From Desulfurococcus amylolyticus Z-533 (GTDB lineage Archaea; Thermoproteota; Thermoprotei_A; Sulfolobales; Desulfurococcaceae): a DNA stretch of 64,000 nt. A program made the translations under genes and the position numbers. Shown here piece after piece: positions 5,009-50,210 of this stretch. Each line of letters opens with the position of its first letter. Positions within the stretch are counted from its first letter, which is position 1. The stretch is taken from the NCBI RefSeq assembly GCF_000513855.1, contig NZ_KI911318.1, forward strand, positions 390,087 to 454,086, read 5' to 3'. The notes below the pieces were generated by a model, which did no database searches, was not told the origin of the DNA, and worked only from the letters and a program-made list of their open reading frames with translations.

Positions 5009-6118
5009 TTAACCACTTTCCTGATCGATTAAGTAGGTGTGCTCCCTGCTCATATAGAGGAGTATCCTCTTACCTCCCCCGAAATCATTTAGCTTGGACC
5101 ACTCATTCTTAGGTATTGTTAACGTCGTGATTCGTCCCCATATATCTATAACTAGCTTTACACTGGTTAAATTATCTATTTCTTCAAGCAGGGATGCCTC
5201 AAGGGTATAGTGATCGCCTTTGCCTGGAGTAAGGGTTATATATCCCGGGTTTACAACTATGAGGGAGTTTCTCCCATCTATGCAGGAACTAGCGTATGTA
5301 TTATACCCTATTTTCTTCTCTACCTTATCTATAGCCACTAATGCTTCACCCTCGTTGCACTTCTTTATTCTAGCTGGGATTACGAGGAATCCAAGGGCTT
5401 GAAGCATGTATGGGCTTGAAAGAATCTTGTGCTCGCTTAACTCGCCATCATATACTATTCTACCATCAACCAAGGCTATGATCCGCTCCTTGAAGAACAA
5501 TATATCTTCTATGAGATGGGTGGTCAATAACACTGCCACCTTAAGCTTATTAAATAGATTAAATAGCTCATTCCTCAACCTCTCTCTGGTAACCGGGTCT
5601 ATAGGGGACAATGGCTCGTCTAATAGTAGTAATGAGGGATTATATGATAGGGCTCTTGCAATAGATGCTTTCTGCCTTAATCCATTACTTAGTTGACCAG
5701 GATACATATCCCTGTATTCCCTTAGCCCGAAGATCTCTAGTAGCTCATTCACTCTTCTCTCAATATCGTTTCTACTCCAACCCCGCTTTTTCAAGGGTAA
5801 CTCAATGTTCCCCTTAAGCGTTAAATTAGGGAATAATGAGGGTTCTGATGGCACGTAACCTATGTTTCTCTCATAGGGAGGCTTATTCACTCTAGGCTTC
5901 TTCATATATGGTTTTTTCTCATATATTGTCTCGCCATCTATGATTATAACGCCTGAATCGGGCTCTATGAGACCAGATATCGATTTCAACAGGGTTGTTT
6001 TACCAGACGCGTTGGGACCAATTATTACGGCTATCCCACCCTTCTCTAATTTGAACCCGATGTCCTTGTTAACTTGTCTACCATTGAAACTCTTGTTGAG
6101 CCCGTTGACTTCAAGCAT
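5009..6118 (-). CDS. Tungstate/molybdate ABC transporter, ATP-binding protein
   Basis: A 369-residue ABC ATPase. Walker A is GPNASGKTT (residues 34-42), Walker B is LLLLDEPLSP, and the H-loop is TTHL. The signature motif is LSNGL rather than LSGGQ. After residue ~235 a C-terminal regulatory domain of about 130 residues resembles the TOBE/MOP-type oxyanion-binding extensions of ModC/WtpC. It overlaps the permease by 8 bp, and the whole transporter is embedded with moa genes, which points to molybdate or tungstate as substrate. In a hyperthermophile tungstate is likely, but the sequence alone does not decide. Confidence 0.82.
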   Translation of the reverse strand: MLEVNGLNKSFNGRQVNKDIGFKLEKGGIAVIIGPNASGKTTLLKSISGLIEPDSGVIIIDGETIYEKKPYMKKPRVNKPPYERNIGYVPSEPSLFPNLTLKGNIELPLKKRGWSRNDIERRVNELLEIFGLREYRDMYPGQLSNGLRQKASIARALSYNPSLLLLDEPLSPIDPVTRERLRNELFNLFNKLKVAVLLTTHLIEDILFFKERIIALVDGRIVYDGELSEHKILSSPYMLQALGFLVIPARIKKCNEGEALVAIDKVEKKIGYNTYASSCIDGRNSLIVVNPGYITLTPGKGDHYTLEASLLEEIDNLTSVKLVIDIWGRITTLTIPKNEWSKLNDFGGGKRILLYMSREHTYLIDQESG

Positions 6119-6887
6119 TTTGTGGATGCCCCTCCATGGATTCCAGCTGGTAGACTACGGCGATGAGCACTAGTATTGACACGATATATATTGACAGCGT
6201 GATCACAAGCACACCTATACCCCCTAGTTGGCTAACCAAGTAGAGGTATATTGGTAACGTCACTGTTTTCCCCCATATACCTCCACCGATAATATAGGAT
6301 GCCCCGAAATCCCCTAGGACACGTGTAAAAACAAGTATAAAGCCGGTGAACACTTGCCTAGTACTCATAGGTAGTAGGATAGTGTAAAGGTACTCGATAT
6401 TAGTAAACCCCATTGTCAAGGCGGCATCCTCATAGCTTCTAGGGATGCTTGAGAACAATGCAGTGAAATAGCTTACGCCAACGGGTATTCCTAGAAAGAG
6501 CTGGGCTGCTATTATTCCCTTTGGGTCATTCACTATTTTTAATGTATTGTCGATGATCAAGCCTAGAGGGGTCTTGGTGAAGAATAGTAGTAATAGGAGT
6601 CCCACAGCCGCTGGAGATATAGATGATGGAAGCATTATAACCGGGAGTAGTAGATTCCTCCTAGTTATCCTCCTTGAAATATAGTAACCTATAGGTATCG
6701 TGATCAGTAATATCAGGATGGATGAGGTGGTCGAGGTGTACAGGGAGAGAAGCATGGAGTAGTAGAAGTCGCTTAACAGGTGACCCGGTACAAGGATCCC
6801 TTGCCATATAGCCATATATATAGGGGTTGCAAATATCGTGGCATCAAGGACTAGTAGCAGTATAAGCAGGAGGAGGAACACCCTCAC
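6111..6887 (-). CDS. Tungstate/molybdate ABC transporter, permease protein
   Basis: An integral membrane protein with about five to six hydrophobic segments and an EDAALTMGF segment, the cytoplasmic EAA loop of ModB/WtpB permeases that docks onto the ATPase. The frame extends to a TTG at 6905, but a GTG at 6887 overlaps the upstream stop (GTGA) and avoids a 22-bp overlap, so I prefer it. The gene sits between the binding protein and ATPase genes. Length (259-264 residues) is usual for the family. Confidence 0.82.
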   Translation of the reverse strand: MRVFLLLLILLLVLDATIFATPIYMAIWQGILVPGHLLSDFYYSMLLSLYTSTTSSILILLITIPIGYYISRRITRRNLLLPVIMLPSSISPAAVGLLLLLFFTKTPLGLIIDNTLKIVNDPKGIIAAQLFLGIPVGVSYFTALFSSIPRSYEDAALTMGFTNIEYLYTILLPMSTRQVFTGFILVFTRVLGDFGASYIIGGGIWGKTVTLPIYLYLVSQLGGIGVLVITLSIYIVSILVLIAVVYQLESMEGHPQNA

Positions 6888-7756
6888 TTCGCATACCCCA
6901 TGCAAGCATTATTAAACAATAGCTCTTCGAGTCTATAAGGAGTTATAGAGGATATCTTATCGAGGTCCCCTACATATCCATTCTCCAAGGGGTATGGATT
7001 GAATCTAACATACTCTACAAGGAACTCCACAAATTCTAGTGCTGCCTGATAGTTTTTAGTGGTGTTGAGTACTGCAGTCATTTGACAACTCATCAACGGT
7101 AGCTGTGCTGGATTAAGCCAGATTATACTTGTATCATTCAAGTACCAGTAATGCGCTACATGTGGAAGTATTGCAACATCTACGAGTCCTAATGCGACCT
7201 GCCTAGCTGTCTGCCCTACATCTCCATAGATCACTAGCTTGTCTTTTACTTTATCGTAGATACCGTTTTTGACAAGTAGTTCTACAGCCATTCTACCGAA
7301 GGGAGCCACGCTCGGGTTAGCTATACCTATTTTCACATCCTTTGATACTAAGTCATCCAGGCTAGTGATATTTGCCGGGTTATCCTTGGGGATTATGAGT
7401 GCTAATACTACATATGAGAGTACCTTAATCGACTCGTTCACTACGAGCCCCATTCTTGAGGCATTCAACATGTACTCGTGATCCGCTGTGACGAAGACGT
7501 CTCCTTCACCAGTCAATAATATCTTATTTAATAATGTCCCGGTAGCACCTCCAATGATCTCGATTCTAACATTCGGATGTAGTTGCATGTATTCCCTTGA
7601 AGCGTTATTCAGTAATGGTTGAACCACTGGGGGAGTATAGACTAAGAGCACCACCTGGGCGGGACTCTGTGAGTAATACGTGTAGATAATCCATGAGGAT
7701 ACCACTAAAAGCAGTAGTATCATGCTTAAAACTATTGTCTTAGACGTAGGCTTCAT
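6884..7756 (-). CDS. Tungstate/molybdate ABC transporter, substrate-binding protein
   Basis: A 290-residue ModA/WtpA-type solute-binding protein, anchored outside the cell by an N-terminal hydrophobic helix (residues ~7-27); I see no lipobox. Typical features are the GATGTLLNKIL stretch, a GDVFVTADHEYM region, SVAPFGRMAVELL and GDVGQTARQVALGLVDVAILP. It starts the three-gene transporter (6-bp gap to the moeA-like gene, 4-bp overlap to the permease). Tungstate is the likely ligand given the lifestyle, but molybdate is not excluded. Confidence 0.8.
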   Translation of the reverse strand: MKPTSKTIVLSMILLLLVVSSWIIYTYYSQSPAQVVLLVYTPPVVQPLLNNASREYMQLHPNVRIEIIGGATGTLLNKILLTGEGDVFVTADHEYMLNASRMGLVVNESIKVLSYVVLALIIPKDNPANITSLDDLVSKDVKIGIANPSVAPFGRMAVELLVKNGIYDKVKDKLVIYGDVGQTARQVALGLVDVAILPHVAHYWYLNDTSIIWLNPAQLPLMSCQMTAVLNTTKNYQAALEFVEFLVEYVRFNPYPLENGYVGDLDKISSITPYRLEELLFNNACMGYAK

Positions 7757-7762
7757 AATGTC

Positions 7763-8761
7763 TCACCGCCTTCGTAGAAAGTACTCGGACAACCCTCCCT
7801 CACCAAATGAGATCAGATACTCCCTCGGGATTTTTACACCGGCCGCTATCCACGGTAGCACTACGTCTAGGATATTGTAGTCTGGGAAATATATTATTCC
7901 GCTTGAAACCCCTATTACGGCTTTCCCATCCTTATACGCAATCATGCTCATGGTGGTCGGCTTCATTGGAACACCGTAGGCTACTACCTCGCTGGCTACA
8001 CTGGCTATAGCCTTTGGTGTTTTATCAGTTGGATCAATACTCATACCTCCGGTGACAACTACTGCATCATGGTCGAGTAATAGGTTTTCAATGGCTCCCG
8101 CTATCTCGGATTCGTCATCCCGGACATATACTAGTGCCCCCTGCTCTAATTCATATAACCGTATCTTCTCAACGACAACCGGGGATGCAAGATCCTTCTT
8201 CCTTCCCTCCACGATCTCTGTTCCTGTTACAATAATACCTATCTTTGGGTGTGTATTCCTGTAGACCTGTAGGATTTTACGTGATGTAAGTATTTCACTT
8301 GATATGTATGAGAGATAATCCCTGGGGATACTTAGAGGTATTAAATCGACAATGCCGACTATATCTGAGTGCTTCACATATACGCCTTTACGTCTAGTTA
8401 TGACGACGTATACTCCTGTAGAATTGATTTTCTCGAGTAGAGTTGAGTCAACCATGAGTAACCCATTCACGGCTGACCTAAGTAGTGCTTTTCCCTCAGA
8501 CGCCTTCTCAACTATGATATTTTCCCCTGAGATTAATTGGGCAAGCTGTAGCACAGCCTCCTCTTCGTGTAAGCCGTACTCTACGCTGTCTCCATCCTCA
8601 ATATACACGTAGTAGTGGCCGTGATTCTTTAGTAACTCAACATCTTCAAGACTTACTACTTCACCGCGTCTTTTAATCGGTGACTTGAAATCCGGTGTAA
8701 CAGCCGAGTAATCGAATGCCAGCTTCCTACCTACTGCATCATCTACTTTTACAAGCTTCAT
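7763..8761 (-). CDS. Molybdopterin-binding protein, MoeA/MoCF-like
   Basis: A 332-residue protein with a MoCF (MogA/MoeA) molybdopterin-binding fold in residues ~165-300. It carries GTEIVEGRKKD and VVVTGGMSIDPTDKTP; the second motif replaces the TGGxSxGxxD of canonical MoeA, as in a divergent archaeal/clostridial subfamily. The N-terminal half resembles the linker domain of MoeA only weakly. As the first gene of the minus-strand Mo/W run it probably acts in metal insertion or cofactor handling. The ATG lies about 22 bp from an inverted repeat that overlaps the predicted transcription start. Confidence 0.75.
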   Translation of the reverse strand: MKLVKVDDAVGRKLAFDYSAVTPDFKSPIKRRGEVVSLEDVELLKNHGHYYVYIEDGDSVEYGLHEEEAVLQLAQLISGENIIVEKASEGKALLRSAVNGLLMVDSTLLEKINSTGVYVVITRRKGVYVKHSDIVGIVDLIPLSIPRDYLSYISSEILTSRKILQVYRNTHPKIGIIVTGTEIVEGRKKDLASPVVVEKIRLYELEQGALVYVRDDESEIAGAIENLLLDHDAVVVTGGMSIDPTDKTPKAIASVASEVVAYGVPMKPTTMSMIAYKDGKAVIGVSSGIIYFPDYNILDVVLPWIAAGVKIPREYLISFGEGGLSEYFLRRR

Positions 8762-40430: not shown

Positions 40431-40868
40431 TTAAACGTATGCATCGGCCTTGATTATGTCGGTGAGTATTGCTGGATAGATGTTTATAACGCCCTCTATA
40501 TTCTTTATCTCATCATGTATTTTCTTTAATTCCTCACTATCTCTCGCCCATATTACTGCAAGTAGCTCGTGGTCTCCCGACGTCAATGCAATGTATTTAA
40601 CATATTCCTTCTCCCTTAGTTTCGATGCCACCTCGAATAATTTATCTGGTTTGACATTTATACCGGTGAAGCTGATCTTATTATATCCCAGGATGGCCGG
40701 GTTAACTATTAACGCATATTTCCTTATCACACCTCTTTCCTCCAGTTTTCTAACTCTTTTGATCACTGCTACATCACTTAGCTTTAGCTTCATTGCGATT
40801 TCTCTAAAGGGTTTTCTAGCGTTTTCCATTAACTCCCTTATTATAAACGTGTCAATCTCATCAAGCAA
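40431..40868 (-). CDS. Lrp/AsnC-family transcriptional regulator
   Basis: A 145-residue regulator: N-terminal helix-turn-helix (residues ~5-50, ENARKPFREIAMKLKLSDVAVIKRVRKLEERGVI) and C-terminal RAM effector-binding domain (SFTGINVKPDKLFEVASKL, TSGDHELLAVIWARD). Such proteins respond to amino acids and regulate metabolism or themselves. It is the third gene of a minus-strand group with superoxide reductase and a CxxC protein, separated by 2 bp from the latter; regulation of that group is a natural guess. Confidence 0.9.
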   Translation of the reverse strand: MLDEIDTFIIRELMENARKPFREIAMKLKLSDVAVIKRVRKLEERGVIRKYALIVNPAILGYNKISFTGINVKPDKLFEVASKLREKEYVKYIALTSGDHELLAVIWARDSEELKKIHDEIKNIEGVINIYPAILTDIIKADAYV

Positions 40869-40870
40869 GT

Positions 40871-41173
40871 CTAATCACCCTGCTTACACAAGTCTAGCTT
40901 AAATATACCTAGCCTTTTAAACTCATTATCCCCGGTCTCCCTGTATTCGATCAACCTAGCTTCGCAACCCATAGATCTCAATATATATGCGTAGTCCTCT
41001 ACCCAATCCCTCACACCGCATGTCAGGCAGAACGAGCCCTCGAACTCGACCACGACTATTCCATCTTCTTCACTAATACTTACAAGGCGGGCAGTGGCCT
41101 CAGGAGACCTGGTTTTATTGTATGCCTCGAGAGCGGAAAAAACTACTTCATGAAGTAACCGGTTTTTCTCCAA
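40871..41173 (-). CDS. Small CxxC protein, unrecognised
   Basis: About 100 residues, with a CLTCG motif near the middle preceded by a beta-rich segment (EEDGIVVVEFEGSF), an arrangement recalling NifU C-terminal or other small metal/Fe-S domains, though I cannot assign it. The frame is open from ATG 41215 inside the superoxide reductase gene. TTG 41173, 5 bp after that gene's stop and preceded by AGGGTAAG, is a more likely start. It lies between superoxide reductase and the Lrp regulator. Confidence 0.65.
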   Translation of the reverse strand: MEKNRLLHEVVFSALEAYNKTRSPEATARLVSISEEDGIVVVEFEGSFCLTCGVRDWVEDYAYILRSMGCEARLIEYRETGDNEFKRLGIFKLDLCKQGD

Positions 41174-41178
41174 GGATC

Positions 41179-41556
41179 TTACCCTGATATCTTTATTTCC
41201 TTGTAATTCTCCCATAATCCATGGAGGTTACAGTACTCAACAGCGATTAGTTTACCCGGCTTCTGGATCTTCAAGTATACCTCCACGACAGGCTCGCTAT
41301 ATACTGGTGTGAACTCATATCTACCTATTAGGATGGGGTTGAATACTCGGCCCTCTTCCTCAAAGTATAATTCCATCCATCTAATAGAGTGTTCCACGGT
41401 GTTAGGATGGGGTCCAACACTAACTTTTACCTTGAATACCTCACCGGGTTTCACCGAGTCAGGAGCCTCTATCCTGGGTGTGTGGCTTTCCACCTTGCTT
41501 AATGCCTCTCCCCTGGCTGATGAAGGTGTATATATGAGATCTTTTAATCCAGTCAT
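41179..41556 (-). CDS. Superoxide reductase (class II, neelaredoxin-like)
   Basis: Reduces superoxide to hydrogen peroxide without making oxygen, the usual anaerobe defence. The iron site ligands are present: His in VESHTPRIEAP, the pair in GPHPNTVEHSIRW, and Cys plus His in EYCNLHGLW. The first desulforedoxin domain of class I enzymes is absent. The frame extends upstream to 41640 with an untypical leader; ATG 41556, preceded by GGGTGG, gives a normal ~125-residue protein. The usual Glu-Lys of the lid loop is not evident. Confidence 0.88.
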   Translation of the reverse strand: MTGLKDLIYTPSSARGEALSKVESHTPRIEAPDSVKPGEVFKVKVSVGPHPNTVEHSIRWMELYFEEEGRVFNPILIGRYEFTPVYSEPVVEVYLKIQKPGKLIAVEYCNLHGLWENYKEIKISG

Positions 41557-41744
41557 ATTATCCACCCAAACTAATAAATTAAAATAGGGATTTTTAAAGT
41601 TTATAATGTGAGCCATATATTTTAAGTAATTATATTCCATGATAACCCATGGGTCAGCTGGGATTACAAGCCAGAGGTAAATTAATTATTTAATTTGCCC
41701 TCACAATATCTAAATGTGCTGACACTGCTTACAGGGTGGTATAA

Positions 41745-42290
41745 ATGAGTGATGACCGAGAGATCTTAGAGCTACTAAAGAAGCTTCTTTCAAAACCCGA
41801 GAGAAAGATAGAGGGCCGGGTGGGGTTGGAGGTCGAGTCCATTGGGCCAGAGTCACCTCATGGAGTATATGTATTCAATCATTCAAGCGGTAAATGGATC
41901 TTGAGACAAATAGAGGGAGATTATTTTAAGCCGTGGGAGGATGGATTATACGTAATATACTTCGATAACGCCAAGTGTCCTGCTTGCAGAGGTTATGATG
42001 CATACTGGTATCCCTTCGTCAAGCTCTTCGGCTCTGCATTCAAGAATTCGCACTATGTCGTCATACTTTGCGACTGGTTTACAAGGGAGTGTGATTCGAG
42101 CATTGCTAAGGGTAGCTTCGAATACTACGATATCCATGCATCACCGACAACCCTACTATTATATGTGGAGAATAATGGGGTTAAAGCATCCAAGAGACTT
42201 GAGGGTTCTAAGAGAATAGATGAACTAGTTAATGAGGTATCAAACTTCATCAAGAGTGTTAAGGGTAGTCAAGTAAGTGGAAGTGGTTGA
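41745..42290 (+). CDS. Thioredoxin-like protein
   Basis: A 181-residue protein with a thioredoxin fold in residues ~65-175. YFDNAKCPACRGY has the redox pair C78-x2-C81, and SPTTLLLY supplies the cis-proline. The N-terminal ~60 residues are a beta-rich extension I do not recognise. It stands first in the pterin gene cluster and overlaps mptA by 14 bp, suggesting co-expression. Its role could be reductant or disulfide handling for the reductive steps, but this is inference. Confidence 0.72.
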   Translation: MSDDREILELLKKLLSKPERKIEGRVGLEVESIGPESPHGVYVFNHSSGKWILRQIEGDYFKPWEDGLYVIYFDNAKCPACRGYDAYWYPFVKLFGSAFKNSHYVVILCDWFTRECDSSIAKGSFEYYDIHASPTTLLLYVENNGVKASKRLEGSKRIDELVNEVSNFIKSVKGSQVSGSG

Positions 42291-43149
42291 TGTGGCCCAC
42301 GATGGGATCCCCGATGTCCACAGTGAGAAACCCCCATTCGAGTTGGATGTGGATAATGTTGGCTTAAGAGGGCTTCGTGGACCCATTATGAAGATTAGGG
42401 AATACATGGTTATCCCGGTATTCAAGGTGTCGGTTAGCTTACCGGCATCATTTAGGGGGGCTCATTTATCGCGTTTATACAAGGCTTATACAGGGGTTGT
42501 GAAACCAGGTGCCGAGCTAACAATGGATTTACTGAGGCAGCTAGCCATAAGGCTACTCGAGGTAAACGAGTATGCTGTGAGAGCCATGGTTTCAGTTAAG
42601 GGGAGGCTCTATCATACGGTGGATCGGGGAGGTGTACCGGAGTACTCTAGCAACGGTTTTATATACGCTGGCGTGAGGTATGAGCGTGGAGGCAGCGTGA
42701 GTGAATACACTGGTGGAGGCATTTACGGGTTAACCACCTGTCCATGTGCAGGAGCGGTCTCTAGACATATATATGGGGAACCCTACACCCACATGCAGAA
42801 GGTAAGGATTAATGCATATATTAAGTCCAGTAAAACCCTTATCGAGCCCATAGAGGTCTTCGAGAAGCTTAATACAGTTGTCTACACACCACGTAACTAC
42901 CTTAAGAGGATTGAGGAGGCCGAATTCGTTAAGATGATATATGAGAAGCCGCTGTTCACAGAGGATATTGCCAGGCTTGCAGCAGTTAAGCTAGCCGAGC
43001 TAGTGGCTAACCATGGAATCAGCGGGCCCGATGGAATATTATATGTGAGTGTAAGATCCTATGAAACCATACACGAGTACGTTGTTGAATCAATAGTTAG
43101 AACCAGGTTAACCGATATCGCTGGCTTTAAGATAATTAATAAGACTTAA
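42277..43149 (+). CDS. mptA: GTP cyclohydrolase MptA (FolE2/GCYH-IB family)
   Basis: First enzyme of archaeal pterin synthesis, converting GTP to 7,8-dihydroneopterin 2',3'-cyclic phosphate in the Fe(II)-dependent MptA type. The 290-residue protein opens with IPDVHSEKPPFELDVDNVGL, then TTCPCAGAVSRHIY, with the metal-binding Cys typical of the family. It is followed directly by mptE and mptD genes. A GTG at 42277 starts the frame, and later in-frame GTGs are possible. In other archaea the product also feeds tetrahydromethanopterin. Confidence 0.88.
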   Translation: MEVVDVAHDGIPDVHSEKPPFELDVDNVGLRGLRGPIMKIREYMVIPVFKVSVSLPASFRGAHLSRLYKAYTGVVKPGAELTMDLLRQLAIRLLEVNEYAVRAMVSVKGRLYHTVDRGGVPEYSSNGFIYAGVRYERGGSVSEYTGGGIYGLTTCPCAGAVSRHIYGEPYTHMQKVRINAYIKSSKTLIEPIEVFEKLNTVVYTPRNYLKRIEEAEFVKMIYEKPLFTEDIARLAAVKLAELVANHGISGPDGILYVSVRSYETIHEYVVESIVRTRLTDIAGFKIINKT

Positions 43150-43162
43150 ATAGGGTGGTTAA

Positions 43163-43894
43163 TTGAGCTGGGTAATAGATCCCTCCGGGTGGAAACCGTT
43201 GTATAATTACATAAAGTCCAGGCTGAACCTTTCATTCGATAGGGATCAGGAATCAACTGATTTATTAAGTAGGCTTCTAGAAAACCGTGATAATATAATC
43301 GAGTACGATGAGTTGAGGGAAGCCTATGAAGGTAGAAATCGTGCACTTATTTTCGGATGTAGTCATAGCCTTGCGAGAGACCTGAGGAAGGCTGTTGAAA
43401 CCAACGTACTTAGAGATGCACTGCTTATAGCTGCTGATGGATCAACCTCTCTCCTTCTATCACATGGTATCTACCCGGATATTGTTGTCACTGATCTAGA
43501 TGGATACATATATGACCTAGCCAGGGCTTCGCATCAAGGCTCTATAACCGTGATACATGCCCACGGAGATAATATGCATAGGATAAACAGGTTTATCGGG
43601 GAGTTCAGGGGTCCGTTAATCGGCTCTACACAGGTGGAGCCGCGGCCACACGTGTACAACTTCGGGGGATTTACCGATGGTGATAGAGCGGCCTTCATAG
43701 CTTACGCTATAGGTATTAGAGAGATATATCTAGCAGGCTTCAACCTCTATGGAGAGCCCTCTATATGTCCAGGTAAAATCGTCCCGTTTAATAAGAGGTT
43801 GAAAAAAGCGAAGCTTGAAGTAGCCTCATATATGCTCAAGTACTTAACGGGTAAAGGAGTTTCCTTTAAATATATTGGGGAGGGAGTTGACTAG
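43163..43894 (+). CDS. mptE: 6-hydroxymethyl-7,8-dihydropterin pyrophosphokinase (MptE, DUF115)
   Basis: The 243-residue protein carries the DUF115/COG1634 pattern: FGCSHSLARDL, then ALLIAADGSTSLLLSHGIYPDIVVTDLDG, the nucleotide-binding core of the archaeal pyrophosphokinase unrelated to bacterial FolK. Near the C-terminus EIYLAGFNLYG is also typical. TTG start after GGTGG; the stop overlaps the mptD start by 8 bp. It activates the pterin for joining to an arylamine in folate or methanopterin synthesis. Confidence 0.85.
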   Translation: MSWVIDPSGWKPLYNYIKSRLNLSFDRDQESTDLLSRLLENRDNIIEYDELREAYEGRNRALIFGCSHSLARDLRKAVETNVLRDALLIAADGSTSLLLSHGIYPDIVVTDLDGYIYDLARASHQGSITVIHAHGDNMHRINRFIGEFRGPLIGSTQVEPRPHVYNFGGFTDGDRAAFIAYAIGIREIYLAGFNLYGEPSICPGKIVPFNKRLKKAKLEVASYMLKYLTGKGVSFKYIGEGVD

Positions 43895-44276
43895 CGATCC
43901 AGCTGCAAAGTATTTCTCAGGTAAAACCACGTCGAGGGATAGAGCAGTATTCGAGGCAGGCATCGCTATAGGGATGATCGTACACCAGTTCACAGGTATA
44001 CCTGTAAAGAGGCTGGAGGATATAGAGTTAATAGGGAAAGTCATCGAGAACGCTGTAAAGGCACAGCCTTTCAAGGAGGATGCTAAGATAGAGATAAGGA
44101 TAGGGGATCTAAGCAGTAGCCCTGGGAACCCATATAGCTACACCACCCTGAAGACGAGGCATATAGATGCCAGGATAGTGGTTAGATACAACAATGTAAG
44201 AGTTGTAGCCAGGCTTAGATACATTCCCGAACTAGACTTTAACCTGGCGTATATAGAGGATATTGAAGAGCTTTGA
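43887..44276 (+). CDS. mptD: Dihydroneopterin aldolase MptD (DUF372)
   Basis: A ~129-residue archaeal-type dihydroneopterin aldolase, unrelated to bacterial FolB. Recognised by DPAAKYFSGKTTSRDRAVFEAGIAIGMIVHQFTG at its start and by a charged C-terminal half, as in COG2098. TTG 43887 is chosen because GGGGAGGG stands just before it; the frame extends to another TTG at 43875. It lies between mptE and the flavoprotein reductase. It cleaves dihydroneopterin to 6-hydroxymethyl-7,8-dihydropterin. Confidence 0.82.
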   Translation: MTSDPAAKYFSGKTTSRDRAVFEAGIAIGMIVHQFTGIPVKRLEDIELIGKVIENAVKAQPFKEDAKIEIRIGDLSSSPGNPYSYTTLKTRHIDARIVVRYNNVRVVARLRYIPELDFNLAYIEDIEEL

Positions 44277-44288
44277 GGATGCTGCTTC

Positions 44289-45002
44289 ATGCCGGAGAAG
44301 AATGTTGCATGGGGCATAACAGGTGCCGGCGCCTTCTTGAAGGAGAGCATTAATGCTATTTCGAAGATCATGGATAGCGGCGTAGGTGTCACAGCATATG
44401 TTTCGCGAGCCGGTAGAAGTGTGCTAGCGATGTATGGGTATCTGGATCAATTAACAGGTATTCTTCAAGGCCCTTATCCTATCGGCGTGGTCTTCGAGGA
44501 TGAGGAGGATGCCGGGTATCCGTCTACTGGCAGAATATATAGGGGCGTATATAACTTGGTGGTTGTCTCGCCAGCCTCCATGAACACTGTCTCGAAAATA
44601 GTTAACGGGATAGCAGACTCACTGGTATCCAACCTGGTAATGCATGCGGTTAAGAATAATATTCCGGTCTTAATCATGCCTGTAGATCTCTACGAGTCTA
44701 AGAGCGTGATGCCCCTTGTAATAGATAGGGATAAATGCTCCATGTGTGACAAGTGTATTGCAGCTGAGAACTGTCCAACAGGGGCTCTACGACCTGACCC
44801 TCGGCATAAGGTTAGGGTTAGCCCTGCAAGGTGTACAAAGTGTTTCATATGTCAAAAAATATGCCCCTATAACGCTATCCACTTCGATGTAGAAGTTGTG
44901 GTTAAACCACATCCATTCTACGTGGGTATCATTAAGAGGCTTAACGATATAGAGGGCGTGGAGATAATAGATCACCCTGACAGGATCTTAGAATACATCT
45001 AG
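44289..45002 (+). CDS. Flavoprotein/ferredoxin dihydropterin reductase (DmrX/dihydromethanopterin reductase-like)
   Basis: A 237-residue fusion of an N-terminal flavoprotein fold (WGITGAGAFLKESINAI... SPASMNTVSKIVNGIADSLV, FMN-binding) and a C-terminal double [4Fe-4S] ferredoxin domain (CSMCDKCIAAENCP and CTKCFICQKICPYNAI). This architecture matches acceptor-type dihydromethanopterin reductases, which reduce the dihydropterin to the tetrahydro form. Located directly between mptD and the DHPS-like gene, it supports a methanopterin-type cofactor. Actual pterin substrate unknown. Confidence 0.8.
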   Translation: MPEKNVAWGITGAGAFLKESINAISKIMDSGVGVTAYVSRAGRSVLAMYGYLDQLTGILQGPYPIGVVFEDEEDAGYPSTGRIYRGVYNLVVVSPASMNTVSKIVNGIADSLVSNLVMHAVKNNIPVLIMPVDLYESKSVMPLVIDRDKCSMCDKCIAAENCPTGALRPDPRHKVRVSPARCTKCFICQKICPYNAIHFDVEVVVKPHPFYVGIIKRLNDIEGVEIIDHPDRILEYI

Positions 45003-45011
45003 GTGAATTAA

Positions 45012-46565
45012 TTGAGGATAGCATTGGTGACTGGTAGGCTAGCAGGGGATGCTATTAGGAAAATAGCGTCGGGGATCAATGTTTCCGGGATCGAGTTAGT
45101 AGTCGTGGAATTACCAATACCTGTAGCAGCCATGATGAGTGATACTTATCTCGAGAAGGAGCTGCCTAGGCACATGGATGTGCTTGGAAACGTGGACCTG
45201 GTTATAGTTCCGGGATACACTAGTGGTGACCTCACGAGGGTATCAGAACTTATCGGTAAACCGGTGGTAAAGGGGGTGAAGTACATGTATGACATCCCAT
45301 TAATGATTAAAGCCATCTCCAATGGTATTGAACTCTCACCCAGGACGCCGGCAGATGATGTGGTAAGGCTCTATAGGGCTGAGAGAGATAAAGAGGTGCT
45401 CAGGGGTCTCAGAGAAAAGGCTAGTACACAATACTATTTCACCATAGGGGATAGATATAAAATCTACGTGAACCCCGTTTATCCTATTATCATCCACGAG
45501 GTATACATGGGACATGATGCATACACGCTTGACGACATCATCAAGAAATCCGAGAAGGCTTTACTCGATGGAGCCGATATAGTTGTAGTCGGGTTTCCCC
45601 ATAACGCACCAGTAGATATCATTGAAGAGGTGGTTGCAGAAGTAAAGAAGAGGCTTGGAAGACCCATTGGCGTTGATGTAGAGGATGTCAACGCACTATT
45701 GAAAGCTGCTGAGGCCGGAGCAGATGTGTTGATGAGTCTCAGTTACTCTAAGATAATGATGCTTGATAATGCATCATCCATTAGCGATAAAGGCGTTGTC
45801 TTGATACCGGATCACAGCATCCACGAGGAAGACAAGCTTGGTAGCCTTGTAGAGGCATATAAGCTGGCAGTGGAGAAAGGGCTCTCAAAGATAATAGTGG
45901 ATCCTGTCCTAGACCCCCCGCTTAGCGGGCTTGCATCCTCCCTAGAGAGATACAGGGCGGCAAGACGGTTGTTCCCTCATACTCCATTATTAATGGGTGT
46001 TGGAAACGTTACCGAGCTAATAGACGCTGACAGCGTTGGCGTAAACGCTATCCTGGCATCGATAGGTGTTGAAATCGGGGTCGAAGCTTATTTGACAACT
46101 GAGGCTAGTGTGAAGACGCGTGGCTCCACCAGGGAGCTTAGAAGAGCCCTCGACATGTGCCTTATAGCGCGTAACGAGTCCAGGCCTCCAAAGGATTTAT
46201 CCATAAACCTTCTGTTACTGAAGGATAAGCGGAGGAAGTCTATTGGTACCAGGCAGCGTGGTGTAATCCTGTATGCTAGGGAAAGAAGGAGCCCGGGGAT
46301 CGATCCAAAAGGCGTTTTTAAGATATATGTGGATCATGATGCTGGAAACATCATCGTCGAGCACTACAGGCTCGGAGAATTAGAGCCCGACTACACTATC
46401 ATTGGGAATGATCCATACGCTATACTTTCAGAGATAACTGGGAGACAGCTCGCTTCAAAGCCCGAGCACTATTTCTACTTGGGCTACGAGTTAAGCAAGG
46501 CATATGTAGCGTTGAAAACCGGGAAAGAATACGTTCAAGAAGAGGATTTATTCGAGGATACTTAA
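45012..46565 (+). CDS. Dihydropteroate synthase-like protein (archaeal type)
   Basis: A 517-residue protein. The central ~200 residues (ADIVVVGFPHNAPVD, GVDVEDVNALLKAAEAGADVLMSLS, IIVDPVLDPPLSG, LLMGVGNVTE) form a dihydropteroate synthase-like TIM barrel. The N-terminal ~170 residues and the C-terminal ~150 residues are extra domains of the MJ0107-type proteins linked to methanopterin synthesis. TTG start after AGGTGAAT. In the cluster it would couple the activated pterin to an arylamine, but the activity of this family is not settled. Confidence 0.78.
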   Translation: MRIALVTGRLAGDAIRKIASGINVSGIELVVVELPIPVAAMMSDTYLEKELPRHMDVLGNVDLVIVPGYTSGDLTRVSELIGKPVVKGVKYMYDIPLMIKAISNGIELSPRTPADDVVRLYRAERDKEVLRGLREKASTQYYFTIGDRYKIYVNPVYPIIIHEVYMGHDAYTLDDIIKKSEKALLDGADIVVVGFPHNAPVDIIEEVVAEVKKRLGRPIGVDVEDVNALLKAAEAGADVLMSLSYSKIMMLDNASSISDKGVVLIPDHSIHEEDKLGSLVEAYKLAVEKGLSKIIVDPVLDPPLSGLASSLERYRAARRLFPHTPLLMGVGNVTELIDADSVGVNAILASIGVEIGVEAYLTTEASVKTRGSTRELRRALDMCLIARNESRPPKDLSINLLLLKDKRRKSIGTRQRGVILYARERRSPGIDPKGVFKIYVDHDAGNIIVEHYRLGELEPDYTIIGNDPYAILSEITGRQLASKPEHYFYLGYELSKAYVALKTGKEYVQEEDLFEDT

Positions 46566-46615
46566 AAATATAGGTTTCAACATCCCATATAGCAGTCTTA
46601 GAGGTGCTTTCATTA

Positions 46616-47653
46616 ATGGAGGATAAAATAATTACAACCCTCCACGGGGCTGGCGGAATCGAGTCATGGAATATAATAGAGAAGCTGATACGCGGACGTG
46701 TACCCAGAGACCTCTGGAGCACACCAGGGGGAGCAGGTCTAGACGTACTCGACGACGGCTCATACATTAGGATCGGTGAGTCATATATAGTGTTCGCTAG
46801 CGATGCATATACTGTGAAACCACTGTTCTTTCCAGGCGGAAATATAGGTGAGCTCGTTGCTTCAGGAGTATTAAACGACCTGGTAATGATGGGGGCTCGA
46901 CCAGTAGCATTCATGGATAACATAGTTGTTGAAGAGGGCTTCGCCATAAGGGAATTGGAAGACATAGTGGACTCGATGGTTAAGACGCTCGTTGAAAACA
47001 ATGTTGCATTGATTGGCGGGGACTTCAAAGTCATGCCAAGGGGAAGCGTTGATGGAGTAGTTATCTCGGGCTTCGCCATAGGGGTCTCTGGCAAACCACC
47101 CGTGGTTGATTCCATAAAGCCTGGCGATAAAATAATAGTTACAAACTATATTGCGGAGCACGGCTCGACAATATTAGCTGCCCAGCTGGACATGCTTAAC
47201 GATGCACCCGGGCTTAAAAGCGATGTAAAGCCTCTTGTTAAAACTGTTTTACCAGTAATCGAGGAGTACCGTGACTACATAAACGCGGCTAGGGATCCCA
47301 CTAGAGGAGGGCTCGCCGCGATACTGAATGAGTGGTCTCGTTCCAGCGGCCTAACAATAATTATTGACAAGGGGAAGATACCTGTTAGAAAAGAGGTGGC
47401 AGAGTTCCTCGAGATGCTTGGGGTAGACCCTCTTACACTGGCATCGGAGGGTGTTGCAGTGTTAAGCGTTAGAAGCGAGGTAGCGGATAAAGTAGTTGAG
47501 GCCCTCCGTAGAAACGGTGAGAACCCATATATCATAGGGGAAGTCGTCGAGCCTAGATCAAGGGAGTTGAGGGGTCGGGTAGTTGCTTTAACAGAGGTTG
47601 GGGGTTTAACGATTATTCCCCCTCAAGCATATAACTTACCGAGGATATGTTAG
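46616..47653 (+). CDS. hypE: Hydrogenase maturation protein HypE
   Basis: HypE makes the thiocyanate that becomes the CN ligands of the NiFe active site; the sulfur acceptor is its C-terminal cysteine. The protein ends in PRIC, exactly the functional tail, and shows the AIR-synthase-like fold with LHGAGGIESW, ALIGGDFKVMPRG and DPTRGGLAAILNEW. ATG 46616 lies 9 bases after GAGGTG; an earlier GTG at 46604 is inside that site. It is followed by hypC and hypF, then the hydrogenase genes. Confidence 0.94.
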   Translation: MEDKIITTLHGAGGIESWNIIEKLIRGRVPRDLWSTPGGAGLDVLDDGSYIRIGESYIVFASDAYTVKPLFFPGGNIGELVASGVLNDLVMMGARPVAFMDNIVVEEGFAIRELEDIVDSMVKTLVENNVALIGGDFKVMPRGSVDGVVISGFAIGVSGKPPVVDSIKPGDKIIVTNYIAEHGSTILAAQLDMLNDAPGLKSDVKPLVKTVLPVIEEYRDYINAARDPTRGGLAAILNEWSRSSGLTIIIDKGKIPVRKEVAEFLEMLGVDPLTLASEGVAVLSVRSEVADKVVEALRRNGENPYIIGEVVEPRSRELRGRVVALTEVGGLTIIPPQAYNLPRIC

Positions 47654-47663
47654 GTGGAGTACT

Positions 47664-47888
47664 ATGTGTTTAGGCGTCCCAGGTGAGGTCATAGGTATTG
47701 AGGATAATAATGAGCTGAAGACTTTAAGGGTGAGGATTGGTGGTGTGATCCGCGAGGTCATATCGGCGCTGGATAAAGTAGAGGTAGGCGACTATGTCAT
47801 CGTCCACGCCGGTGTAGCCATAAGCAAGATCAGCAGAGAGGAGGCGGAGGAAACACTCAGGCTCCTTGCGGAGATCAGTGGCATCTAG
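47664..47888 (+). CDS. hypC: Hydrogenase maturation chaperone HypC
   Basis: A 74-residue HypC/HupF protein starting MCLGVPGEV, whose N-terminal Cys2 binds the Fe(CN)2CO intermediate during cofactor assembly. The pattern DYVIVHAGVAISKI near the C-terminus also matches. It is 10 bp after hypE and 24 bp before the hypF ATG, as expected for a maturation operon. HypA, HypB and HypD are not in this window and must be elsewhere. Confidence 0.95.
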   Translation: MCLGVPGEVIGIEDNNELKTLRVRIGGVIREVISALDKVEVGDYVIVHAGVAISKISREEAEETLRLLAEISGI

Positions 47889-47912
47889 AACACTGTGAAA
47901 CCGGGGTCTTGG

Positions 47913-50210
47913 ATGAAAGCGTTAAGAATAGTGGTTACAGGGCTAGTCCAAGGAGTTGGCTTCAGGCCATTCATAGATAGGGTTGTTAGGCAGATGAAGC
48001 TGAACGGTTATGTGAGGAATGTCGGTGGGAGCGAGGTCGAGGTATGGATTGAGGGCAATGAAGAATACTTGTATGAATTTCTAGCTGCCTTGTTATACGA
48101 GAAGCCGCCTCCAGCATTGATCGATGATGTTGTTTTCGAGGAGGAGATCCCAGTAGGTTACACGGGGTTCACGATTCTAAAGAGTAGTGAAGCAAGGATT
48201 CTTAGGTCGAATATACCGCCCGATCTTGCTGTATGCAGACACTGCCTCGAAGAAGTACTAGACCCCTTGAACAGGAGGTACATGTATCCCTTTAACTCGT
48301 GCGCCTGGTGCGGTCCCAGGTTCTCGATGATGCATAGGTCGCCGTATGATAGGGAGAATACAAGTATGTCCAAGTACATGCTCTGTGATGAATGCCTAAG
48401 GGAATACAATGACCCAGAGAATGTAAGGAGACATCATGCCCAGGGAATAAGTTGCCCTAGGGACGGCCCCAGGCTCGCTCTCTACGATAATGATTTCACC
48501 CCTATTAATACACGGGACCCTATTAAAGAGGCGGCTCAATTAATTGATGAAGGGTATATAGTGGCTGTTAAAGGCATAGGAGGGTATCATATAGCATCGC
48601 TCGCTACAGATGACGAGGTGGTTCATAGATTAAGGACTAGGAAAAAGAGGCCTAGGAAACCGTTTGCAGTAATGGGGCTTGACACTAGTATTCTAGAACT
48701 ACTTGTCTACATGGATGAGAGGGATAGGGAGATACTTGAGTCGCCGAGGGCGCCAATACTGCTTCTGCCTAAACGCGAGGATTCACCGGTGTCAAGGCTC
48801 GTCTCACCTGGTTTAAGCCATGAAGGAGTCTTCATAGCTTACACGCCCCTGCACTTTCTACTATTGATGAACACCAAGGATAAATTCCTTATAATGACCA
48901 GCGGCAATGTATCAGGGGAACCCATGTGCCGTGATGAGGAATGCGCTAAAAACAGGTTGACCAGTATAGTGGATTATTTCCTCGTGCATGACCGTGATAT
49001 CGTGAATAGGGTTGATGACAGTGTTATACGTAAAACAGGCGGCGAGTACGTTTTACTTAGAAGATCTAGGGGTTATGCCCCCTCATGGATCAAGATACCT
49101 GTTGAACTACAGCGTGAAGTAATAGCTTTCGGTGGAGATCTTAACAATGTTGGTGGAATAGGCTTTGAAAACAAGATTGTTTTAACACAGTATATTGGGG
49201 ATCTTGAGAGCTATAATGCACAGGTCGATCTAGTAAACACTATAGAATACCTGGTGAGAAACTACGGGGTTGACTCAGAGAAGGCTCTCATAGCTGTTGA
49301 TAAACACCCTTCATACCACTCTAGAAGGCTTGGTATAGAGTATTCCAGGAGGCATGGTGCCGGGATAATCGAGATCCAACACCACTATGCACACGTCTTT
49401 GGCGTAGCTGTCGATAGAGGTTTAAGCGGGGTGGTTGCCGGGCTGGCAATAGATGGTGTCGGATGGGGCGACGATTCAACGATATGGGGTGGAGAGGTAT
49501 TAGTGTTCGACATGGATAAACCCGGTGTATATAGGAGGGTCGCATCCATAGATTACATCCCATTAACCAGTGATAGAGACACCGTTAAACCATTCAGGCT
49601 CCTCTACGGATACCTCGCTAAAAAAGGATGGGATATAGGGGAAATAGACAGGGTTCTAGGGCTAAGGGATGGCAACCGTATATTAGAGGGGCACATGGTA
49701 TACAACATGGTGAAGCGGGGCAGGTACACCCCGGCTTCCAGCACCGGGCGTCTCATCGATATAGTGGCCTCTATAATAGACCCTGGCATTGAGAGGAGCT
49801 TTGAAGGGGAGCCAGCTATAAGGCTTGAAGCCATGGCATTCAATGGCGTACCAAGACTACTGGAGGACGTTAGGTTCCAAGTAGATGGCAACCTGGTGAG
49901 GCTGGATGTATATGGCGTTATATCCAGGATCCTTGAGGAAAGGAGCTCTATGAAACCATGTGACCTAGCTGCATCCTTCCTATATAGCATTGGCTACTAT
50001 TACGGGGAGCTCATAGCAGCATCTATTAAGGGCTCCAGTGTCTCCAACATAGTTGTCTCTGGTGGAGCATCTGTAAACGAGTATATTTACAGGGGTCTAC
50101 GTGATAGGCTTGCTTCAGAGGGCTTGAAGCCTTTACTACCATTAAATATACCGCCTAATGATGAGGGAATAGCCTTCGGGCAGGTGATCGTAGCTGGTTT
50201 AATTAGGTAA
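47913..50210 (+). CDS. hypF: Carbamoyltransferase HypF
   Basis: A ~765-residue enzyme that transfers the carbamoyl group from carbamoyl phosphate to HypE. Domains in order: acylphosphatase-like (GLVQGVGFRPFIDR), two zinc-finger motifs (CRHC, CAWCGPR and CDEC), a YrdC-like domain (AVKGIGGYHIA, KKRPRKPFAVM) and a Kae1/carbamoyltransferase-type domain (IEIQHHYAHVFGV, AIDGVGWGDDSTIWGGE). ATG 47913 gives the usual MKALRIVVTG start; the frame reaches back to a GTG at 47895. Confidence 0.94.
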   Translation: MKALRIVVTGLVQGVGFRPFIDRVVRQMKLNGYVRNVGGSEVEVWIEGNEEYLYEFLAALLYEKPPPALIDDVVFEEEIPVGYTGFTILKSSEARILRSNIPPDLAVCRHCLEEVLDPLNRRYMYPFNSCAWCGPRFSMMHRSPYDRENTSMSKYMLCDECLREYNDPENVRRHHAQGISCPRDGPRLALYDNDFTPINTRDPIKEAAQLIDEGYIVAVKGIGGYHIASLATDDEVVHRLRTRKKRPRKPFAVMGLDTSILELLVYMDERDREILESPRAPILLLPKREDSPVSRLVSPGLSHEGVFIAYTPLHFLLLMNTKDKFLIMTSGNVSGEPMCRDEECAKNRLTSIVDYFLVHDRDIVNRVDDSVIRKTGGEYVLLRRSRGYAPSWIKIPVELQREVIAFGGDLNNVGGIGFENKIVLTQYIGDLESYNAQVDLVNTIEYLVRNYGVDSEKALIAVDKHPSYHSRRLGIEYSRRHGAGIIEIQHHYAHVFGVAVDRGLSGVVAGLAIDGVGWGDDSTIWGGEVLVFDMDKPGVYRRVASIDYIPLTSDRDTVKPFRLLYGYLAKKGWDIGEIDRVLGLRDGNRILEGHMVYNMVKRGRYTPASSTGRLIDIVASIIDPGIERSFEGEPAIRLEAMAFNGVPRLLEDVRFQVDGNLVRLDVYGVISRILEERSSMKPCDLAASFLYSIGYYYGELIAASIKGSSVSNIVVSGGASVNEYIYRGLRDRLASEGLKPLLPLNIPPNDEGIAFGQVIVAGLIR

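Follow-up and report, generated by a model that had tools for sequence, protein, structure and literature searches.

A predicted methanopterin-type modified-folate operon in Desulfurococcus amylolyticus and its thioredoxin-like neighbour

Tetrahydromethanopterin (H4MPT) was at first thought to be confined to methanogens and sulfur-dependent hyperthermophilic archaea (PMC6193120). The modified folates of archaeal hyperthermophiles have been reviewed (PMC3334880, which cites the work of R. H. White on those of Sulfolobus, Pyrococcus and Thermococcus), and Crenarchaeota are listed among the holders of H4MPT-linked genes (PMC5020050). Here, we analyzed a stretch of 64,000 nucleotides from Desulfurococcus amylolyticus Z-533 (contig NZ_KI911318.1, positions 390,087 to 454,086; hereafter, the window), the genome of which comprises 1,307,099 bases in one contig. 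An earlier, sequence-only reading had described the genes at window positions 41745-46565 as a methanopterin-type pterin operon, notable in a non-methanogen and led by a thioredoxin-like gene that could be a new component of the pathway. The claim of notability did not hold, as modified folates and H4MPT in sulfur-dependent hyperthermophilic archaea are already established (PMC6193120, PMC3334880). The operon probably encodes an expected pathway, correctly annotated in that reading, and archaea of this type have long been reported to possess H4MPT-type carriers.

H4MPT biosynthesis in methanogens involves MptA, MptB, MptD, MptE, the RFAP synthase MptG and DmrX. The Desulfurococcus locus shares with it MptA, MptE, MptD, a DmrX-like protein and a TIGR00284 protein, all in one operon, as well as an RFAP-synthase homologue elsewhere in the genome. 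It differs in its operon-like packing, in the divergence of the RFAP-synthase homologue, in the lack of Mch, and in that a gene of the DUF1464 family, present in no methanogen control, sits with DUF447 and the RFAP-synthase homologue. Relative to the modified folates of Sulfolobus, Pyrococcus and Thermococcus, the organism is of the same kind, and a decarboxylated arylamine is predicted here from the RFAP-synthase homologue. No difference was found from the TIGR00284 (MJ0107-type) family, the protein being full length and over the family cut-off.

We consider it very probable that the operon encodes the pterin half, the condensing enzyme and the final reductase of tetrahydromethanopterin-type biosynthesis, with the thioredoxin-like gene, trx, being merely a general redox neighbour. 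The consecutive, overlapping arrangement reported earlier was confirmed by both open reading frames (ORFs) and family matches. Six ORFs lie on the same strand, with overlaps of 14 nt (trx/mptA) and 20 nt (mptE/mptD) and remaining gaps of 13, 12 and 9 nt:

41745..42290, + strand: trx, thioredoxin-like protein of 181 aa (AF2 model, Foldseek/VIA; relatives match PF00085)
42277..43149, + strand: mptA, GTP cyclohydrolase of the FolE2/MptA family (PF02649, 113 bits, E=1.9e-32)
43163..43894, + strand: mptE, 6-hydroxymethyl-7,8-dihydropterin pyrophosphokinase, archaeal type (PF01973, 82 bits, E=6e-23)
43875..44276, + strand: mptD, dihydroneopterin aldolase, archaeal type (PF04038, 113 bits, E=1.7e-32)
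44289..45002, + strand: DmrX-like Fe-S flavoprotein, a candidate for the terminal dihydropterin reductase (PF02441 and two 4Fe-4S motifs)
45012..46565, + strand: dhpsL, TIGR00284 (MJ0107-type) protein resembling dihydropteroate synthase (DHPS), candidate condensing enzyme (TIGR00284, 355 bits)

MptA, MptD and MptE passed the cut-offs of PF02649, PF04038 and PF01973, respectively. The best NCBIfam match of the flavoprotein was TIGR02700 (dihydromethanopterin reductase), with residues 6-236 spanning positions 2-233 of the 234-position profile, that is, over its full length. The last protein of the operon matched TIGR00284 over residues 1-513, with 355 bits against a curated cut-off of 257, and is built from DUF6513, followed by a DHPS-like TIM barrel and then a DUF4346 pterin-binding domain. 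A profile of this family recovered dihydropteroate synthases from the PDB (6pz2, E=5.8e-10), while phmmer with the single protein sequence gave no match there. We found no experimental test of the function of the TIGR00284 family in the literature.

Desulfurococcus and Thermosphaera are anaerobic hyperthermophiles that reduce sulfur or ferment. All six genomes of these two genera have trx, mptA and mptE in this order, and the full order trx-mptA-mptE-mptD-dmrX-dhpsL was present in all four of the six that were examined in full. As the order is preserved across both genera, the arrangement is not due to chance, and a chance adjacency of trx and mptA within them was thus rejected.

The sequence-only reading had advised looking for RFAP synthase in the same genome. 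A profile search revealed a homologue at G000:C1:382831-383763, 6.3 kb before the start of the window, which lies at the TIGR00144 family cut-off of 113.5 bits (111.7 bits in six-frame translation and 113.7 bits on the ORF). The homologue retains the phosphoribosyl-pyrophosphate (PRPP) loop PRHIGLGSTTQ (H-x-GxGS, the H99-S104 loop of ForT), the equivalents of Arg-19 and Thr-106 of ForT, and the equivalent of R26 of MTH0830. For these comparisons, the ForT residues were taken from PMC8183095, while the MTH0830 sequence around D19 and R26 was read from primers in PMC6787355. Taken together, the protein is a member of a divergent group of the RFAP-synthase family, with a predicted RFAP-synthase activity. 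Two RFAP-synthase paralogues each were seen in three other genomes (G038, G048 and G058), and in two of these, G038 and G048, the second copy adjoins a gene for DUF1464.

C1-carrier enzymes, likewise proposed as a check, were also found, as serine hydroxymethyltransferase (SHMT) and ThyX are both present in the genome. Mch is absent from it and is patchy in the order, being found in 7 of the 61 genomes that made up our set of relatives. No match to canonical DHPS (PF00809) was obtained in the genome, although 13 of 14 control genomes were positive, so that the sole remaining candidate for the condensing enzyme is the TIGR00284 protein. Dihydrofolate reductase (DHFR; PF00186) was matched in none of the 61 genomes, with the Haloferax control being positive, and the final reduction would thus be left to the DmrX-like protein. 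DHFR-independent routes do exist. Co-occurrence was counted in the 45 genomes of high quality, where the RFAP-synthase homologue and a full TIGR00284 protein were found together in 35, each alone in 2, and neither in 6. The presence of the RFAP-synthase homologue, the lack of PF00809 and DHFR matches, and the clustering of pathway genes in relatives all bear out the earlier proposal of a methanopterin-like carrier, and support a methanopterin-type modified folate, rather than plain folate, as the best reading of the operon.

In the proposed pathway, GTP would be opened by MptA, and MptD and MptE would then yield 6-hydroxymethyl-dihydropterin pyrophosphate, which the TIGR00284 protein would couple to an aryl moiety derived from the RFAP-synthase homologue, the gene of which lies ~50 kb away. 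The resulting dihydropterin would be converted to the tetrahydro form by the DmrX-like flavoprotein. As Mch, an oxidation-state enzyme, is absent, the carrier would probably serve SHMT and ThyX. The thioredoxin-like protein would have a general redox function, its gene having come to sit before mptA in the Desulfurococcus/Thermosphaera lineage.

Several points weigh against this assignment. MptA scored 99 bits against the equivalog TIGR00294, missing the cut-off of 220, and the flavoprotein scored 205 bits against TIGR02700, also an equivalog, with a cut-off of 251. The flavoprotein is therefore a candidate that may work like DmrX, yet it is not classed as a TIGR02700 equivalog. The RFAP-synthase homologue reached 140 bits against the equivalog NF040726, the cut-off of which is 328, and carries Lys in place of R135 of ForT and Asn in place of D19 of MTH0830. 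Its equivalent of the classical DLxGxxGRxDGG motif reads NPFIRGARRYISAG, such that the D-L-x-G-x-x-G-x-x-D-G-G pattern, present in higher-scoring homologues of the same order, has been lost here. For MTH0830 itself, the D19N variant retains partial activity (PMC6787355). Our searches for pathway partners covered RFAP synthase, SHMT, ThyX, DHPS, DHFR and Mch. Moreover, haloarchaea possess an RFAP-synthase-like protein although they use folate (PMC8305020), and the homologue by itself is thus no proof of a modified carrier. That precedent, together with the divergence of the homologue and its score below the equivalog cut-off, would also suit a different explanation, namely that ordinary tetrahydrofolate is made, with the TIGR00284 protein condensing p-aminobenzoate directly and the RFAP-synthase-like protein having another role. 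We nonetheless judge this explanation unlikely, as the genome lacks both the PF00809 DHPS and the DHFR that the Haloferax control possesses, as the homologue clusters and co-occurs with pathway genes, and as the archaeal hyperthermophiles examined generally contain modified folates (PMC3334880, PMC6193120). The operon is thus clearly best explained as part of the methanopterin-type pathway expected of a hyperthermophilic archaeon.

Divergent TIGR00284-like proteins scoring below the cut-off (~110-180 bits) were observed in G006, G018, G023, G026 and other genomes without mptA and RFAP synthase, where they may possibly serve in salvage or have another function once the pathway was lost. One genome, G015, contains a second, divergent TIGR00284-like copy (G015:C1:791991-793415).

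In the Desulfurococcus genome, the RFAP-synthase homologue ends an overlapping run, outside the window, of DUF1464 (381034-382236), DUF447 (382223-382846) and the homologue itself (382831-383763); this run (G000:C1:381034-383763) corresponds to positions 5035-7764 of locus L041. In six relatives (G015, G038, G005, G016, G014 and G008), mptA, mptE, dmrX, TIGR00284, RFAP synthase, DUF447 and DUF1464 all occur in one locus. Three of these six loci (G015, G005 and G016) lack mptD, and a 6-pyruvoyl-tetrahydropterin-synthase homologue adjoins mptA or mptE instead, which is a known kind of substitution. Such homologues near mptE and mptA were located as follows:

L044, 7566-7976: 6-pyruvoyl-tetrahydropterin-synthase homologue
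L047, 11106-11561: 6-pyruvoyl-tetrahydropterin-synthase homologue
L057, 9309-9779: 6-pyruvoyl-tetrahydropterin-synthase homologue

Among the 61 genomes scanned, RFAP synthase lies within 8 kb of DUF447 in 23 of 30 genomes, representing 11 genera, and within the same distance of DUF1464 in 18 of 36, representing 12 genera. In the high-quality genomes, RFAP synthase and DUF1464 were both present in 34 and both missing from 8, with RFAP synthase alone in 3 and DUF1464 alone in none. Among the controls, DUF447 was found in the methanogen, Haloferax and Sulfolobus, and DUF1464 in Sulfolobus only. DUF447 has solved relatives (2ptf, 2iml and 2nr4), which we take to be FMN-binding split barrels, while DUF1464 is butyrate-kinase/ASKHA-like. 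For DUF447, DUF1464, COG2457 and COG2441, no functional paper was found in the open literature, and, to our knowledge, the late steps of the pathway are incompletely assigned. We tentatively suggest that DUF447 and DUF1464 might catalyse unassigned modified-folate steps, such as reductive opening of the ribose ring of RFAP and a phosphoryl transfer on the side chain, with a variant arylamine from the divergent RFAP synthase as their substrate. Both look like better candidates for the missing steps than does the thioredoxin-like protein. Throughout the order, both their location and their occurrence follow those of RFAP synthase, and DUF447 comes with solved structures; they offer a testable lead that could fill the open steps.

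The trx ORF itself matched no Pfam or NCBIfam model, including the thioredoxin Pfam model. An AlphaFold model of the protein (39 sequences, pLDDT 93) nonetheless presents a thioredoxin fold according to Foldseek and VIA, with the best VIA match being the Aeropyrum pernix thioredoxin 3emx (Z 12.7, rmsd 2.8, 120 aligned). A CPAC motif (C78/C81), a second cysteine pair (C109 and C116), and S133 and P134, which form an SP motif where thioredoxins usually have their cis-proline, are invariant in 39 homologues. Like thioredoxins of PF00085, the protein thus has the fold, the SP motif and a CxxC that opens the domain's first long helix; unlike them, it carries an N-terminal extension of ~30-45 residues ahead of the thioredoxin domain and the second invariant cysteine pair.

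The proposal that trx is a new component of the pathway was not supported and was rejected on the distribution of the gene. Homologues of trx occur in 49 of the 61 relatives, and mptA in 24. Of the 38 high-quality genomes with trx, 18 lack mptA and 7 lack RFAP synthase, and the homologues in genomes without mptA are full length, with identities of up to 56%. Genomes share trx and RFAP synthase no more often than expected by chance (31 genomes with both, 7 with trx only, 6 with RFAP synthase only and 1 with neither), with p=1, a value that, as all p-values here ignore kinship, is descriptive only. Where both genes are present, trx is never near RFAP synthase (0 of 28 genomes) and is near mptA in only 6 of 22. 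A scan of named genomes yielded 66 trx loci, of which 58 had enough sequence for neighbour counts; a pathway gene lay within 3 kb of trx in a single locus (mptA in L068), against 12 loci for an lrp gene and 11 for a gene encoding an FCxxCG protein. Adjacency to mptA is restricted to Desulfurococcus and Thermosphaera (g1 and g6) and the unplaced metagenome-assembled genome L068, and conservation at this place, which the sequence-only reading had proposed to examine, was not seen outside these two genera. A dedicated role within this lineage, for example keeping the MptA metal site or the flavoprotein reduced, would accord with the trx-mptA order, overlapping or with a short gap, in six genomes of the two genera and in L068, and with the presence of trx in all 20 high-quality genomes with mptA. 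Given the distribution described above, we consider such a role very unlikely. The most suitable reading of the protein is that of a general redox function and a neighbour by lineage, its gene probably being co-transcribed with the pterin operon here without being a dedicated part of the pathway, and it can be taken off the list of candidate components.

The genes that flank the operon are:

40431..40868, - strand: lrp, Lrp/AsnC-family regulator (PF13404/PF01037)
40871..41215, - strand: small FCxxCG protein, family unplaced (without Pfam match)
41179..41640, - strand: dfx, desulfoferrodoxin/neelaredoxin-family protein, divergent neighbour of trx (PF01880, E=9.1e-32)
46604..47653, + strand: hypE, hydrogenase maturation (TIGR02124, 293 bits, over the cut-off)

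The general redox reading can be refined by, and is compatible with, the idea that trx forms a group with desulfoferrodoxin, the FCxxCG protein and Lrp that is concerned with oxidative stress or redox sensing, and that it only abuts the operon. The neighbour counts given above, which span several families with divergent or convergent gene arrangements, point in this direction, as does the desulfoferrodoxin gene, which lies between them in g1 and g6 and near them in g9. The link is, however, moderate, as other neighbours stand beside trx in most loci; we regard such a group as plausible, if somewhat short of probable. The FCxxCG motif of the small protein is invariant, and its gene adjoins the Lrp regulator and trx in several families. 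Between dfx and trx there is only an AT-rich stretch, and inspection by eye of four such intergenic regions revealed no conserved promoter element.

At the other end, hypE starts 38 nt 3' of the pterin operon and adjoins dhpsL in G001 and not in G002; it is probably not a member of the pathway. Together with ORFs of the size of hypC and hypF, it occupies window positions 46604-50210 (+ strand), hypE being the one of the three to which a profile was applied.

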